This document shows, piece by piece, positions 4,310 to 11,700 of a DNA stretch of 16,100 bases. The DNA lies in contig CAOKLK010000001.1 in assembly GCA_948469295.1 (NCBI GenBank), forward strand, positions 1-16,100, in the 5' to 3' direction. Under the pieces are notes generated by a model, which was not told where the DNA came from, searched no databases, and saw only the letters and a list, made by a program, of their open reading frames with translations. The DNA is from an uncultured Mycoplasmatota bacterium. GTDB lineage: Bacteria > Bacillota_I > Bacilli_A > RF39 > UBA660. The number at the start of each line of letters is the position of its first letter. The first letter of the stretch is position 1. Position numbers and translations under genes: made by a program.

Positions 4310-4346
4310 TATAATAAGCTAAGTAAATAGTTGAAAATAGTTGAAA
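4310..4346 (+). promoter_or_regulatory. Remnant promoter region of the decayed surface gene
   Basis: TATAAT at 4310-4315 has no convincing -35. It is followed by a 10-bp tandem repeat, ATAGTTGAAA twice (4327-4336 and 4337-4346). The sequence just before the old start (GTAGTGATGGTT) is the same as before the intact paralogue at 11640, so the leader regions share descent. Confidence 0.35.
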
Positions 4347-4352
4347 GTAGTG

Positions 4353-4946
4353 ATGGTTCTGGATAAGAAAACAATATTAATTCCCTTAGGATGTATAATT
4401 TGATTATTATTTGTAATAGGAATCAGTTATGCTTATTGGGGGTTCTCATTTACGTAATCCGAGAATAATGTTGTTATGACAGATTGTTTTGAAATAGAAT
4501 TTATGGAAGGAAATGCAATTAATCTTTCCAAAACTTATCCAGTCAGTGATAGTGAGGGAATGAAGAATACGTTATATACTTTTATGATTAAAAATATTTG
4601 TGATAGCATGGCACAGTCAAAATATATAAAAGTAATATTACTAAAATTGTAATGGAAGATGAAATGAATCCAAAAGAAGCAGTATTAAGTTTTGACTTAT
4701 CTGAAAATCAAAATGGAAGCGTGATGGGATATTTCGTACTAAATAAAGATAACAAAACTTATACTTTTTAAATACAATCAGAAGGTGGAATATATGGAAG
4801 AGATGTTTTATACGTGTAATTCTTTAACTAATATTGTGTATGGAGAAAATTTTATTTACACAGAAGGGATAACAATTGATCGTATATTTGATAATTGTCC
4901 AGCAAATAAACCAACTCATGAATCATGGAATGGTTTACAATTTTAA
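4353..4946 (+). pseudogene. Decayed surface-protein gene: anchor domain like the 10150-11640 gene plus BspA/DUF285-like tail
   Basis: From ATG 4353 the frame reads MVLDKKTILIPLGCII, stop, LLFVIGISYAYWGFSFT, stop, SENNVVMTDCFEIEFMEG and so on to NICDSM. This matches the N-terminus of the intact protein at 10150-11640 (ISYAYWSLTFTQNENNVVTTDCFEIEF). In-frame stops are TGA (4401), TAA (4455, where the paralogue has CAA-type Gln) and TAA (4650). Homologous sequence then continues in another frame (about 4619-4768: SNITKIVMEDEMNPKEAV) and returns to the first frame. The last part (MEEMFYTCNSLTNIVYGENF, ending NKPTHESWNGLQF) has the MF-x-x-C-x-SL-x-x-I pattern of BspA-like/DUF285 surface repeats and ends in TAA at 4944-4946. 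The middle of the protein is missing compared with the paralogue. The gene is dead, with several independent lesions. Confidence 0.85.
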
Positions 4947-5077: not shown

Positions 5078-6244
5078 TTATTTGTCACGTAATTCTGCTC
5101 GGAAAGTTTCTGTAACTTTTTTGATAATTTCATTAAATACATTCATTACTTCTTCTTCGGTTAACGTTCTTGTTTCGTCTTGGAATGTTAATTTGTAAGC
5201 TAAAGATTTTTTTCCATCTTTAATATTTGGATATAAATCAAATACTTCACAATTTGTTAATATTTTTTTCCCTTCTTTGATGATACATTTTTTGATTGTT
5301 TCGCTATCAATTTCATTATCTAAAATAAAGGCAACGTCTTTTGTTATTTCTGGATATTTATTTGCTTCTTTAAATTTTAAAGGTTTTACATTTATCATCA
5401 GAGCATTTAGTGATAATTCTGCAACATAAATTTCATCTTTTTTTAAGCTTGGATGAACTCGTCCGATGATTCCAATTGGTTTTTTATCTAATAAAATTCT
5501 AGCACTCATTCCTGGGTGAAGATTTGGTATGGTATCTTTTTCAAAACTATAACGATTTTTTAATCCCATGTAATCTAGTAAATTTTCAATCATTCCTTTT
5601 AATAAGAAGAAATCTGCTTTTACTGCAATTTTATTCCATTCATTTTGTACATAGTTTCCTTTGATTAATAAAGCAATTTTACTTTCTTCTTGATAATTGA
5701 TATCATATGTTTTACTAATTTCATAAAGAAATACGTCTTTATTTTTTCTGGCTTTGTTATAGTCATAAACATTTAATAATGATGGAATGATAGTCGTTCT
5801 TAATATCGATTTATCAACACTCATTTGATTTGGTAATTCTTTATTTTCTTTTGAATCATATCGAAATAATTTGGCCATTTTTGGGGAGGTTAATGTGTAA
5901 GTTTTACATTCATTTAATCCAAGGGTACGTAGTCTTTTGGAAATAATTTTGCGATATTTTACATCTCCTTTGTATTCTCCTTTTTTGATTGAACAAATTG
6001 GTAAGGTCGATTTTAAATTATGATATCCATATAATCTTCCTACTTCTTCTGCTATATCATTTACATAAGGATCGATATCTAATCTACGTTTTGGTATTGT
6101 TACGATAAATTCGTTATTTTTGTATTCATAAGGAAAATCTAGTCGATTTAGTTCTATTTCCATATCTTCTTTAGAAATGGTGATTCCTAGAAGAGAATTG
6201 ACTTCTTCTTCTTTAAATGTGACGATTTTTGGAGTTTTATCCAC
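5078..6244 (-). CDS. pheT: Phenylalanyl-tRNA synthetase beta chain, C-terminal part (after in-frame stop)
   Basis: This is the downstream part of pheT, in the same frame as the upstream part. The coordinates start at the first possible initiator, a GTG at 6244, but 16 further pheT-like codons (KYANAKVLSGTLTHDH) lie between the TAA at 6293-6295 and this GTG. No ribosome binding site precedes it, so independent initiation is doubtful. Counting from the GTG, residues 5-80 are the B5 domain (RRLDIDPYVNDIAEEVGRLYGY), 95-290 the catalytic-like core domain (ISKRLRTLGLNECKTYTL, HPGMSARI, GIIGRVHP), and 296-388 the FDX-ACB anticodon-binding domain (KYPEITKDVAFIL to FRAELRDK). The two parts together make about 787 codons, the normal size of bacterial PheT. 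PheT forms the alpha2-beta2 enzyme with PheS and holds the editing site and tRNA-binding domains. Confidence 0.93.
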   Translation of the reverse strand: MDKTPKIVTFKEEEVNSLLGITISKEDMEIELNRLDFPYEYKNNEFIVTIPKRRLDIDPYVNDIAEEVGRLYGYHNLKSTLPICSIKKGEYKGDVKYRKIISKRLRTLGLNECKTYTLTSPKMAKLFRYDSKENKELPNQMSVDKSILRTTIIPSLLNVYDYNKARKNKDVFLYEISKTYDINYQEESKIALLIKGNYVQNEWNKIAVKADFFLLKGMIENLLDYMGLKNRYSFEKDTIPNLHPGMSARILLDKKPIGIIGRVHPSLKKDEIYVAELSLNALMINVKPLKFKEANKYPEITKDVAFILDNEIDSETIKKCIIKEGKKILTNCEVFDLYPNIKDGKKSLAYKLTFQDETRTLTEEEVMNVFNEIIKKVTETFRAELRDK

Positions 6245-6292
6245 ATGATCATGTGTAAGAGTTCCAGATAATACTTTGGCATTGGCATATTT

Positions 6293-7441
6293 TTATAACA
6301 GGTAGCTTGCTCTTTCGTTTGCTTCTTTGGTATATTCGTTATTTAATCCTTTTCCATAACGGATAGATGCTTCACTTCGAAGATTTAAACGATTGGAAGT
6401 ATAACGGATGCTAGTACTTTCAAAAATAGCACTTTCGATTAGTAACGTTTTGGTATTCTCTGTTACTTCTGTTTCTAACCCACCCATGACACCTGCAATA
6501 CAAATGGGTTTATTTCCATCTGTAATTACTATATCATTGTTAGTTGTTATTCTTTCTATTCCATCTAGGGTCGTAATTTGTTCTTCTTTGGCATCCCGAA
6601 TTAAAATGTTATTTCCAACTTTTTCTTGATCGTAAAAATGAAGTGGTTGGCCATATTCTAGCATTACGTAATTTGAGATGTCTACCACGTTATTTATAGA
6701 ACGCATTCCATAAGCATTTAAACGTCTTTTAATAAATTCTGGAGATTCTCCAATTTGAACATCTGTTACCATTTTCATTAAACAATAAGGACATTTGGAT
6801 GTTTCTACTTTTAAGCTTACATGATTTTCTATAGAATCTTGGATGGGATTGGTTGTATGTTCTGGATAGGTTACTTTTCTATTTAGTATTGCTGCAATTT
6901 CATATGCAAACCCAATATGATAGTAACAATCATTATTTCGATGTTTATGAATATCTAATTCATATAAGGTATCATCCAATTTTAAATATTCAAATATATT
7001 TTTTCCAAGAGGGGCATCACTTGGTAATTCTTCGATTCCACGGTTGTAGTTTTCTTCTGTTTTTTCTTCTAATCCTAATTCAAATAATGCACATATCATT
7101 CCATTGGATTCTTGATTTCTAATTTTACTTTTTTTAATTTCAAAATTTCCTGGAAGGATTGCTCCTGGAAGGGCTACGATTACTTTTAATCCTTTTCTTA
7201 CATTGGGAGCACCACATACTATTTGATACGTTTCATTTCCTGTAGTTACTTGGCAGATATGTAAGTGATCGGAATCTGGATGATCTATGCATTCTAATAC
7301 TTCTCCAATTACTACATTTTTGATTTTTTTGGTCATAACTTTTTCAATGTTAATTCCCGCTTTGGTTATTTTTTTAGCTAATTCTTCTAAATCTTGATCA
7401 CTAATATCTATGTATTCACTTACCCATTCTAAATTAATCAT
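6293..7441 (-). CDS. pheT: Phenylalanyl-tRNA synthetase beta chain, N-terminal part (ends at premature TAA)
   Basis: The ATG at 7441 is chosen because AAAGGAG lies just upstream (GAAAGGAGATCAAACATG); a longer frame from a TTG at 7462 only covers the ribosome binding site. Counting from that TTG, residues 45-150 are the EMAP/OB-fold tRNA-binding domain (VIGEVLECIDHPDSDHLHIC, NGMICALFELG) and 215-375 the B3/B4 editing domain (NVVDISNYVMLEYGQPLHFYD, IAGVMGG, RSEASIRYGKGL). The frame stops at TAA (6293-6295) in ERASYLL-stop-KYANAKVL, where homologues continue. The sequence after the stop is in frame and PheT-like, so this is a single nonsense codon, not a frameshift or natural end. The start overlaps the pheS stop by 8 bases, which points to translational coupling. 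Because the gene is essential, a sequencing or assembly error, strain variation or readthrough must be considered. Confidence 0.93.
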   Translation of the reverse strand: MINLEWVSEYIDISDQDLEELAKKITKAGINIEKVMTKKIKNVVIGEVLECIDHPDSDHLHICQVTTGNETYQIVCGAPNVRKGLKVIVALPGAILPGNFEIKKSKIRNQESNGMICALFELGLEEKTEENYNRGIEELPSDAPLGKNIFEYLKLDDTLYELDIHKHRNNDCYYHIGFAYEIAAILNRKVTYPEHTTNPIQDSIENHVSLKVETSKCPYCLMKMVTDVQIGESPEFIKRRLNAYGMRSINNVVDISNYVMLEYGQPLHFYDQEKVGNNILIRDAKEEQITTLDGIERITTNNDIVITDGNKPICIAGVMGGLETEVTENTKTLLIESAIFESTSIRYTSNRLNLRSEASIRYGKGLNNEYTKEANERASYLL

Positions 7442-8486
7442 GTTTGATCTCCTTTCTATCAAAGTTTTGTAATTCTCTTAAATCGGTCATATAAAATGTT
7501 CGAACATCATCAATTCCATATTTAATCATCGCTAAACGTTCTGCTCCAAAACCAAATGCGAATCCTTGCCATTCTTTGGGGTCGTACCCACAATTTTTTA
7601 ATACATTTGGATGAACCATACCAGCTCCTGAAACGGTTATCCATCCAGTGTTTTTACAAATATTACATCCTTTTCCATGACATAAGTGGCAACTGATATC
7701 AGTTTCTACAGAAGGTTCGGTGAATGGATAATAGCTCGGACGAAATCTTGTTTCACAATCATTTCCAAATAGATGTTTGGCTATGCAATCAAACGTACCT
7801 TTTAAATCAGACAAACTAACGTTTCTATCTACAAGTAATCCTTCTATTTGAGTAAATTGATGAGAGTGAGTGGCATCGTCATCATCTCTTCGATAAGTCT
7901 TTCCAGGACATATCATTCGAATTGGTTGTTGTCCTTTTCCCTCTAACATGGTTCTTATTTGTACTGGTGAGGTTTGACTTCTCAGTAATAGTTCTTCTCC
8001 TTCTAGATAAAATGTATCTTGAGCATCTCTAGCTGGATGACCTTTTGGTAAATTTAGCATTTCAAAGTTATATTTATCTTTTTCTACTTCTGGACCATCT
8101 ACTACATCGTATCCCATTGTCATTAATAAATCTTCTACTTCTTCTACAATTTTTTCAATGATACTTGGCGATCCGAAGGGAATTTTGGTGGCTGGAAGTG
8201 TAATATCAATTTGTTCTTGTTCTAGTTTTTCATTTAGTTCTTGTTCTTCATAAAAATTTATTTTTTCTTCGAATAATTGATTGATTTCATTTTTTAGTTC
8301 ATTTAATATTTTTCCAAATTCTTTTTTTTCTTCATTATTTAACGTCTTTAAATGTTCTGTTAATTCATTCATTGCTCCTTTTTTTCCTAAATATATTACT
8401 TTTATTTCATTGATTTCTTTTAGGTTTGAAGCATTTTCTATTTTAGTTTTGATTTCTTCTTTTAAGCTTTTTACTTTTTCTATCAT
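7434..8486 (-). CDS. pheS: Phenylalanyl-tRNA synthetase alpha chain
   Basis: Catalytic subunit that charges tRNA-Phe with phenylalanine using ATP, in an alpha2-beta2 complex with PheT. The ATG at 8486 is chosen: AAAGGAG lies 8 bases upstream, and the longer frame to 8561 runs back through the T-box terminator. This gives 350 residues, the usual length. Visible: N-terminal coiled-coil tRNA-binding arm (about 1-85); HPARDAQDTFYL (150-161); TSPVQIRTM and YRRDDDDATHSHQFTQIEGL (class II motif 2 region, about 172-216); FRPSYYPFTEPS (248-259); a four-Cys element at 266, 269, 274 and 277 followed by TGW, as in Bacillus-type PheS; and motif 3 GFGAERLAM (312-320). The gene follows a T-box leader and overlaps pheT, so both subunits should respond to uncharged tRNA-Phe. 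Confidence 0.97.
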   Translation of the reverse strand: MIEKVKSLKEEIKTKIENASNLKEINEIKVIYLGKKGAMNELTEHLKTLNNEEKKEFGKILNELKNEINQLFEEKINFYEEQELNEKLEQEQIDITLPATKIPFGSPSIIEKIVEEVEDLLMTMGYDVVDGPEVEKDKYNFEMLNLPKGHPARDAQDTFYLEGEELLLRSQTSPVQIRTMLEGKGQQPIRMICPGKTYRRDDDDATHSHQFTQIEGLLVDRNVSLSDLKGTFDCIAKHLFGNDCETRFRPSYYPFTEPSVETDISCHLCHGKGCNICKNTGWITVSGAGMVHPNVLKNCGYDPKEWQGFAFGFGAERLAMIKYGIDDVRTFYMTDLRELQNFDRKEIKHD

Positions 8487-8507
8487 TTTTTGATTCTCCT
8501 TTATCAT

Positions 8508-8539: not shown

Positions 8540-8690
8540 CGAGATCTACCCGCGGTACCACCCAAATTCTAGGTTTTCTAGCACTTTGTAGTTTTTAACG
8601 GGAACTCTCCGATTTTACTCCATATTTTGAATTTCGTTTTAATAGGTACTAAAAGTAATTTCAGCCATGTTACTTTTTCTCTTATTTAGA
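8508..8690 (-). promoter_or_regulatory. T-box riboswitch leader of pheST
   Basis: On the minus strand the T-box sequence GGGTGGTACCGCG (8563-8551) is followed by CTCGTCCC, which can pair with GGGTGG to make the antiterminator, and by a terminator stem that shares those bases. Upstream is a helix AAAAGTAA/TTACTTTT near the 5' end and a small CTAG/CTAG stem before the T-box. Uncharged tRNA-Phe is expected to stabilise the antiterminator. The specifier codon is not certain: UUC triplets occur at 8631-8629 and 8604-8602. The leader is compact, about 170-180 bases. Its 5' end and promoter are not firmly placed. Confidence 0.92.
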
Positions 8691-10115: not shown

Positions 10116-10151
10116 AAAAAAAACTTTTGAATTTTTTTCAAAAGTTTTTTT
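10116..10151. terminator. Bidirectional terminator between gmk and the surface-protein gene
   Basis: A 14-bp stem AAAAAAACTTTTGA/TCAAAAGTTTTTTT (10117-10130 and 10138-10151) with a 7-base loop carries T runs on both strands. It serves gmk on the plus strand and the 10150-11640 gene on the minus strand, whose stop codon it overlaps. Confidence 0.88.
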
Positions 10152-11640
10152 AATCTTCTAAAATAATGTTTAGGGGATCATTTGCAGATCCGGTTCCAGA
10201 TTCTATTTTCACTTCTTGTTTTAAGTAAACAACTGGATAAACTATAAGAGGATCTCTTCCAGCTTGTGCCCTTCCCAAACCAGCTGCTTTACTTCGAACA
10301 AGGACATATATTGCCGCTTTATCTTCTCTCATAGGATTCATTAACCATATTGCTTCTTCCTTTATTAACCAATTATTATGCTTACAATTGGAAAAAGCAC
10401 TGTATGATCCTAGAGTAGCATTTAAGCATGCTTCACGATCATGATTACTTCCTCCAATGGTTGCATATCCATAATCACTTGGATACATTAATCCAACTTG
10501 TCCTTTCCAGGAAGTTGTTCTTGGAATTGTATCGTTACAATACTGGGAACTTGGATTACATACTTTTCCAATCATATTGTTTCGCTCCATATCATATGCA
10601 CTTTTGGTGGTGGTGTTATAATAACTTGACTCATGAGAACTTCCAGTATTCCATGTTACTTCATCAATTTGGTTTTTCGCATCTAAGGATAAATTATTAT
10701 AATAATCTTGATTTAAATAATTTTTAATCTCAGATTGGCTCCATTCATTGATACCAAAACTTCCATTTACGTTTTGAGGACTATTAAACCATAAACGACT
10801 TCCAATATTTTCATTGCGAATTAGCTTTATTCTTTGACCCTCTGGAGTATTGACAAGTCCAATCACTCGCCATAACTCATTATTAAAATTAATATAATTA
10901 TTTGGATTAGATCCCGCATATCGATATTCGGTTTGTTTTAAATTTTGTATGGCAACAGGATCATTGGTATAGGTAATGTTAGCATCTTCATGAGTTACTT
11001 TGTATATTCCGGTTCCACTCGTTACTGTGTTTGTCTTTATTATCGTTTCAAAGGTAGGGAGGGAATAACTTGAAATAATCGTTATTTTTCCATTATAGGT
11101 AGCATTCATACTATCTTTATCATTCGCTGTCACATCGCTATGCATCCAGATTCTTACATCAAATTCTTTTTCTTCTTGGGGATTCAATGTTCCTTTTAAT
11201 AGTTTGTAGCTTTCTAGGGCTTCTTCGATCGTTGGATCGGTTGTTAATTTTGGATTTAAGTCTTTATCTAATTTGGTTGTAATTTTAGAAATTTCATTTT
11301 CTTGAAGATTTATTTTTAAATATTTGTCTGGAAGTTTTTTCATTTCATCTGATAATGTTTCTAAATTTATTTGAAAGCTGGCACTACTATCACATACGTT
11401 ATTTATTTTAAAATGATAGGGAGTTGTTTGGAGTCCATCCGTATCACTCATGGGATAGGTTTTAGTTAAATTGATTTTTTCTCCTTCTAGAAATTCTATT
11501 TCAAAACAATCGGTTGTTACAACATTATTTTCATTTTGGGTAAAGGTTAAGCTCCAATACGCATAAGAAATGCTAATTACTAACAATAACACTAATCCGA
11601 TACTTCCAAACATTAACATTTTTTTCTTTTTCATAACCAT
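10150..11640 (-). CDS. Membrane-anchored surface protein, SYAYW-type N-terminus
   Basis: No named family recognised. The ATG at 11640 is chosen (AAAGG 5 bases upstream); GTG 11643 and ATG 11634 are alternatives. Counting from 11643, residues 5-9 are basic, 10-26 hydrophobic, then SYAYW (26-30), so it is either anchored or cleaved near there. A first domain (about 31-95) has TTDCFEIEF and a Cys pair 46/84. A beta-rich region (95-195) follows with a DUF-like DVRIWMHSD motif. The C-terminal domain (about 235-497) has many Trp, Tyr and Asn residues and Cys 362, 369, 406 and 420. It ends in YPVVYLKQEVKIESGTGSANDP, a closing pattern also found in the partial gene at 15811-16100. The N-terminal part is shared with the pseudogene at 4353. 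So this is the intact member of a family present at least three times here. Likely extracellular and possibly adhesive, which is inference. Confidence 0.82.
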   Translation of the reverse strand: MVMKKKKMLMFGSIGLVLLLVISISYAYWSLTFTQNENNVVTTDCFEIEFLEGEKINLTKTYPMSDTDGLQTTPYHFKINNVCDSSASFQINLETLSDEMKKLPDKYLKINLQENEISKITTKLDKDLNPKLTTDPTIEEALESYKLLKGTLNPQEEKEFDVRIWMHSDVTANDKDSMNATYNGKITIISSYSLPTFETIIKTNTVTSGTGIYKVTHEDANITYTNDPVAIQNLKQTEYRYAGSNPNNYINFNNELWRVIGLVNTPEGQRIKLIRNENIGSRLWFNSPQNVNGSFGINEWSQSEIKNYLNQDYYNNLSLDAKNQIDEVTWNTGSSHESSYYNTTTKSAYDMERNNMIGKVCNPSSQYCNDTIPRTTSWKGQVGLMYPSDYGYATIGGSNHDREACLNATLGSYSAFSNCKHNNWLIKEEAIWLMNPMREDKAAIYVLVRSKAAGLGRAQAGRDPLIVYPVVYLKQEVKIESGTGSANDPLNIILED

Positions 11641-11700
11641 CACTACCTTTTAGAATGTCCCAGTTTTACAAAGATATTTATTTATCGTTTTATGACACTA

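Follow-up and report, generated by a model that had tools for sequence, protein, structure and literature searches.

The question raised by this locus is whether a stop codon inside pheT, the gene for the beta subunit of phenylalanyl-tRNA synthetase (PheRS), is a biological feature of the organism. PheS and PheT associate as the (alpha beta)2 ligase responsible for charging tRNA-Phe. In the 16,100-nucleotide stretch of DNA analysed here (the window), the pheT frame occupies 5078..7441 on the minus strand, running from an ATG at 7441 to a terminal TAA at 5078-5080. Its 788 codons contain one internal stop, the TAA at 6293..6295, which is codon 383 and in frame with the ATG, so that the minus-strand reading at this point is ERASYLL, TAA and then KYANAKVLSGTLTHDHVDKTPK. 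Reading of the whole frame revealed neither a frameshift nor a second lesion, and the 404 codons downstream of the stop are undamaged. The letters therefore confirm what the initial annotation had described, namely a single TAA that splits pheT after ERASYLL, with the same frame continuing and no frameshift involved.

The two parts of the frame together resemble a complete bacterial PheT. The N-terminal 382 codons (6296..7441, minus strand) match Pfam PF01588 (tRNA_bind) and PF03483 (B3_4), and residues 2-382 correspond to positions 3-383 of the NCBIfam model TIGR00472. The C-terminal 404 codons with the terminal TAA (5078..6292, minus strand) contain B5, tRNA_synthFbeta and FDX-ACB (PF03484, PF17759 and PF03147, all over the cut-off) and correspond to positions 386-798 of the 798 in the model, in agreement with the earlier description of a complete B5 to FDX-ACB half. 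The model is thus covered over nearly its whole length in one frame on both sides of the stop, and what the given sequence lacks of a bacterial PheT is the uninterrupted chain, broken by the TAA at 6293-6295. Directly upstream lies an intact pheS, encoding the PheRS alpha subunit (7434..8504, minus strand); its start at 8504 is a choice made in this analysis, the mechanical open reading frame starting at 8561. The pheST genes of Bacilli are often T-box controlled; no Rfam family reached threshold in a scan of the whole window, and hence no T-box was seen before pheS.

To place the stop among relatives, we compared 118 pheT loci, of which 116 cover the stop site, two of them being the window itself. 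All the other 114 covering loci have a sense codon at the site and no stop in the aligned stretch, among the matches listed; these counts refer to loci, include the best 80 of 308 matches and draw on two collections that may contain one genome twice. The comparison with sister genomes that had been proposed earlier therefore places the stop in none of the 114, and a split conserved in relatives, such as a genuine split synthetase might show, was not found among them. This counts both against a stop that is read through and against an enzyme made in two pieces. Of 60 genomes searched, 58 gave a pheT match, and a TAA inside pheT was found solely in the window's own assembly (G000). Two genomes from another family (G039 and G051) have three TGA codons each inside pheT, which would fit a code that reads TGA as Trp.

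We also asked how far the part downstream of the stop has been kept under selection. The ratio of C-half to N-half divergence was 1.374 for G000, the 12th lowest value in a set with a median of 1.554 (n=109, G000 plus 108 relatives with a full-length pheT of its type). Judged by this ratio, the downstream half is as constrained as in the relatives, and pseudogene decay of the C half, which would appear as relaxed constraint, is ruled out. Such a pattern indicates that the stop is very young, or that it is absent from the organism, or that the second half is still made.

The position of the stop within the protein bears on the last of these. The B3_4 match uses 169 of the 174 profile positions before it stops at residue 382, so that the cut lies approximately at the profile end, and B5 starts 24 residues into the second piece. 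An AlphaFold2 model was built for L040, the most similar pheT locus (among the best 80 of 308), from a 20-row alignment (mean pLDDT 75.4, pTM 0.47, with the blocks at 371-400 scoring 88-95). Since the stop site equals residue 384 of this model, the 16th residue of a 19-residue helix (369-387) that precedes a strand pair, the cut is placed by the model within the last predicted helix of B3/4 and not in an interdomain linker, where the break of a split synthetase might be sought. The initial annotation had let the two parts meet at the linker before B5, which the relative's model does not support, and had suggested that a split might be tolerated there. That suggestion fares no better: transposon mapping in Mycoplasma pneumoniae, as given in the available text of PMC12494982, found pheT clean-essential and insertion-tolerant only over approximately 34 bp in the B1-B3 linker.

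Start signals for a second piece were likewise sought. Past the stop, the frame next offers a start codon at 6242..6244 (GTG, minus strand, codon 400), 48 bases beyond the TAA. No Shine-Dalgarno-like run was seen when the bases upstream of it were read by eye, which bears out the earlier remark that the downstream half has no ribosome binding site. A scan of 5900-6700 for promoter-like sites gave one, on the minus strand at 6684-6655 and thus upstream of the stop, and none between the stop and the GTG; shuffled sequences give 3.2. Start signals of its own, as expected for the second piece of a split synthetase, were therefore found neither for translation nor for transcription.

The residues upstream of the stop do show something that a newly exposed chain end might show. 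At positions 368, 375 and 379, conserved hydrophobic or Cys residues have changed to polar ones in this PheT alone, all in the same helix. With the stop counted, private changes are clustered near it (permutation p 0.0112 for all changes and 0.0044 for radical ones, in a test that was post hoc). With the stop left out, the largest cluster is 3 in 16 residues, and a cluster of the same size is also found at 208-222 of PheT, which argues against a special adaptation at the stop.

Given the observed stop, its absence in relatives, the constraint downstream and further lone stops elsewhere in the assembly (see below), we find it very probable that the gene encodes an ordinary single-chain PheT and that the stop is either a consensus error or a short-lived dead allele; as a biological feature the pheT stop is most likely not to be credited. 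As to the first of these two origins, we lean towards an error in the given sequence: a base call, assembly or damage error in thinly covered data would have put TAA into the consensus. Alternatively, part of the sampled population may carry a short-lived dead pheT allele, and such a real but transient null we hold to be rather unlikely. In both cases the enzyme itself would be a normal PheRS, the living population need not tolerate the stop, and a sense codon would be expected in reads or other strains. Of the four options that the initial annotation had set side by side, making no choice, the base error (or else a transient null allele) is favoured by the evidence, and TAA readthrough and a true two-piece enzyme are disfavoured.

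Support for the preferred explanation comes from the assembly itself, which is patchy and carries other lone stops. G000 is a metagenome-assembled genome (MAG) whose 192 contigs total 940,786 bases, with a completeness of 78.15% and a contamination of 1.01%. The search for a second pheT that had been suggested found none in it, at 78% completeness. For a census of stops, 52 G000 contigs (428,026 bases) were compared with proteins from stretches of two congeners, G005 and G001. pheT itself did not enter the count, the congeners' copies being too divergent for it, and laxer cut-offs had been used in an earlier, smaller census. Against the G005 proteins, 181 genes with 56,093 codons yielded nine rows, six stops and three frameshift candidates (on contigs C12, C28 and C24), a script having dropped 13 more stops with a terminal position or weak context. 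Two of the six stops, both on L131, were judged to precede a gene start and not to fall within the gene, and a third (L134 near 11249) is close to a contig end, where the alignment is poor; these were rejected. Against the G001 proteins there were 0 stops in 22,046 codons of 61 genes, which speaks against our preferred explanation. The control comparisons gave one stop and one frameshift candidate in 39,495 codons (G005 DNA against G001 proteins), one stop in 55,686 codons (G005 DNA against G000 proteins), no stop and one frameshift candidate in 39,858 codons (G001 DNA against G005 proteins) and nothing in 21,942 codons (G001 DNA against G000 proteins). The excess of stops in G000 over its congeners thus rests on small counts. 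One stop in G005 itself deserves mention, an in-frame TGA at L167:4736 in a formamidopyrimidine-DNA glycosylase (mutM-like) gene, whose family was taken from the G001 homolog.

The three stops that were kept are all TAA, and the genes were named by the Pfam matches of the intact G005 proteins. The first (L134:249, contig C7) interrupts the gene of an AAA/ClpB-type ATPase, presumably clpC-like, which has a match in 20 of 24 genomes searched and a stop only in G000. Over 340 residues, three changes at columns with 80% conservation or more are private to the G000 copy. The stop and one other of these are separated by three codons, at positions invariant in the 19 others and approximately 250 bases from a contig end, and this pair looks like a local error cluster. 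The second (L151:3068, contig C24) lies in a CDP-alcohol phosphatidyltransferase gene with matches in 10 of 24 genomes; a mid-gene stop was found only in G000, G013 having one near the gene start. The third (L207:4202, contig C40) is in a Nudix gene and is probably real decay, since two congeners have a damaged copy as well: that of G003 shows a stop and a frame change, and that of G001 is in pieces that lie in three frames. Stop flags raised for the phosphatidyltransferase in G001 and for the Nudix gene in G018 proved not to lie inside the aligned gene.

Several observations speak against an error in the consensus. The pheT stop lies mid-contig, on the longest of the 52 contigs compared, and the neighbouring pheS has one private change against 103 relatives and shows no sign of errors. 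In 42 three-way genes with 60 private changes, no substitution type was in clear excess in G000, the spectrum being like that of the congeners. In addition, the probable decay of the Nudix gene and the decayed gene beside pheT indicate that real lesions occur in this genome. The remnants of the latter gene are found at 4330-4946 of the window; by eye, its start resembles a 497-aa gene at 10150-11643 (DUF6273) and its end resembles a protein on G000 contig C2. That contig encodes, at L129:6006-14432, a protein of 2808 aa with glycine-rich stretches and numerous repeat units, which when read by eye has the look of a secreted protein. A scan for viral contigs found no relative. A misbinned contig was considered, PheS and PheT having an alien look in this genus, and rejected: on the same contig MurE shares 71-73% identity with the MurE of five congeners and no more than 63% with any match beyond the genus (18 genomes searched), rubrerythrin is 86-92% identical to the congeners' and 83% to that of G018, and gmk, compared with congeners only, is 77-80% identical.

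A comparable stop was found in the pheS of another MAG. In a set of 104 pheS sequences (the window's and those of 103 relatives), the copy at L047 (ONJI01000043.1, MAG RUG357) has a lone mid-gene TAA at L047:3660, in a column where 100 of the 104 agree and which we take to be class II motif 2 in the catalytic core; a functional split at this point would not be plausible. Other pheS stop flags were set aside as lying at the 3' end (L052, L053 and L090) or as the terminal stop (G005), and one was raised in G003 as well. Besides the window's pheT, a lone mid-gene stop thus occurs in one of 212 PheRS gene copies (108 pheT and 104 pheS), a count from which copies without one long alignment are excluded, so that frameshifted copies would be missed, and for which the window itself was chosen for its stop. 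A cell whose only pheT is null would not function, and for this reason a lone stop in this essential gene of a MAG can serve as a yardstick of base-level quality.

A stop that is truly present and fixed might be leaky, a near-cognate tRNA inserting an amino acid at the TAA often enough to yield sufficient full-length PheT. The fully conserved downstream half is what such readthrough would require, and the available text of PMC7918605 describes prokaryotic genes that carry in-frame stops while under purifying selection, which it interprets as frequent readthrough. Among 135 G000 genes whose ends agree with those of their G005 orthologs, 91 end in TAA, 22 in TAG and 22 in TGA; TAA is thus the commonest stop and an ordinary one, which disposes of an alternative code and counts against readthrough. 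TAA is, moreover, an efficient stop. Both prfA and prfB have matches over the cut-off, the prfB match (L141:383-1417, contig C14) carrying a TAA near its N-terminal end, with similar flags in G003 and G005. No suppressor was seen among the four tRNAs that ARAGORN found in 52 of the 192 contigs, a sample outside which most tRNA genes must lie. The ordinary use of TAA, the release-factor matches and the absence of the stop from the relatives listed together leave readthrough very unlikely.

Another way in which a real loss might be tolerated is a second pheST, of the type found in the congeners, in the unassembled part of the genome. The window's PheT is 62-65% and its PheS 65-74% identical to those of five other genera of its family (G018, G027, G012, G019 and G015). 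Five of six congeners match, with PheT mostly 30-33% identical (40% for a short piece in G004) and PheS 43-46%, and no pheST match was found in the sixth, G006. The type was compared between window 5078-8504 and the loci L120, L121, L127, L282 and L005, and it is divergent in G001-G005. A second type therefore circulates in the genus, and the assembly, being 78% complete, has room for it. Nevertheless, G001, G004 and G005, which have enough flanking sequence, show the window's gene order around the divergent pheST, in the rubrerythrin-gmk neighbourhood; the divergent operon thus occupies the same locus, which argues for replacement and not addition. G018 has a pheST of the window's type among comparable neighbours, and G013 has the divergent type beside rubrerythrin. 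Identities and gene order suggest that the whole pheST operon was exchanged at its locus within the genus, probably on the congeners' side, with the window retaining the older type. Furthermore, two full-length pheT genes were found in none of the 60 genomes searched, and the window's pheS and downstream pheT half are still conserved. A hidden second pheST consequently has a slender chance, below even that of readthrough.

We know of no natural bacterial PheT in two pieces, and a stop that is real and fixed would make this the first. In its favour, all expected Pfam domains are intact, with only the last few B3_4 positions cut, and a designed split elsewhere is viable in M. pneumoniae (see below). 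On this view B1-B4 and B5-B8 would be made apart, translation starting afresh at GTG 6244, and both would join PheS. The cut would fall in the final helix of B3/4, the editing domain, and the changes at 368, 375 and 379 would be adaptations of an exposed end, in a genus where the other members with a match have a different pheST. This is the least probable reading of all in view of the predicted helix, the missing start signals, the 114 other loci, none of which has a stop there, and the essentiality of M. pneumoniae pheT outside the B1-B3 linker.

The preferred reading, an ordinary PheT with an erroneous or transient stop, can finally be set against known systems. With bacterial PheT as represented by TIGR00472, the window's copy has in common the domain order, the near-full profile coverage and the adjoining pheS; it differs in the internal TAA at codon 383. 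Our literature search returned an engineered split PheT only (PMC12494982), and the available text of PMC4690370 and PMC7973814 is not concerned with a pheT stop. The engineered strain of M. pneumoniae, as described in the accessible part of that report, has PheT likewise in two pieces and is viable, the break lying after T207 in the B1-B3 linker and a promoter having been added ahead of the second piece; a split PheT is therefore workable in principle, at another site. In the window, by contrast, the predicted cut is in the last B3/4 helix and no expression signal was seen, so the pheT stop calls for caution before it is read as a split enzyme. There is also a likeness to interrupted genes in which, as here, a single lesion affects an otherwise conserved gene and relatives are without it. 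According to the available text of PMC1852416, resequencing of 73 interrupted M. smegmatis genes traced 28 to sequencing errors. None of these was a base miscall, for which the authors blame their own program, the method being unable to find substitutions; they were insertions or deletions in an isolate genome, whereas the window has a lone stop in a MAG. The in-frame stops described in the part of PMC7918605 available to us are common to at least two prokaryotic species, lie in surroundings with few mismatches and seem not to persist for long, and for many of them the authors favour tolerance by readthrough; the stop in the window, in contrast, is found, among the loci compared, in its own genome alone.
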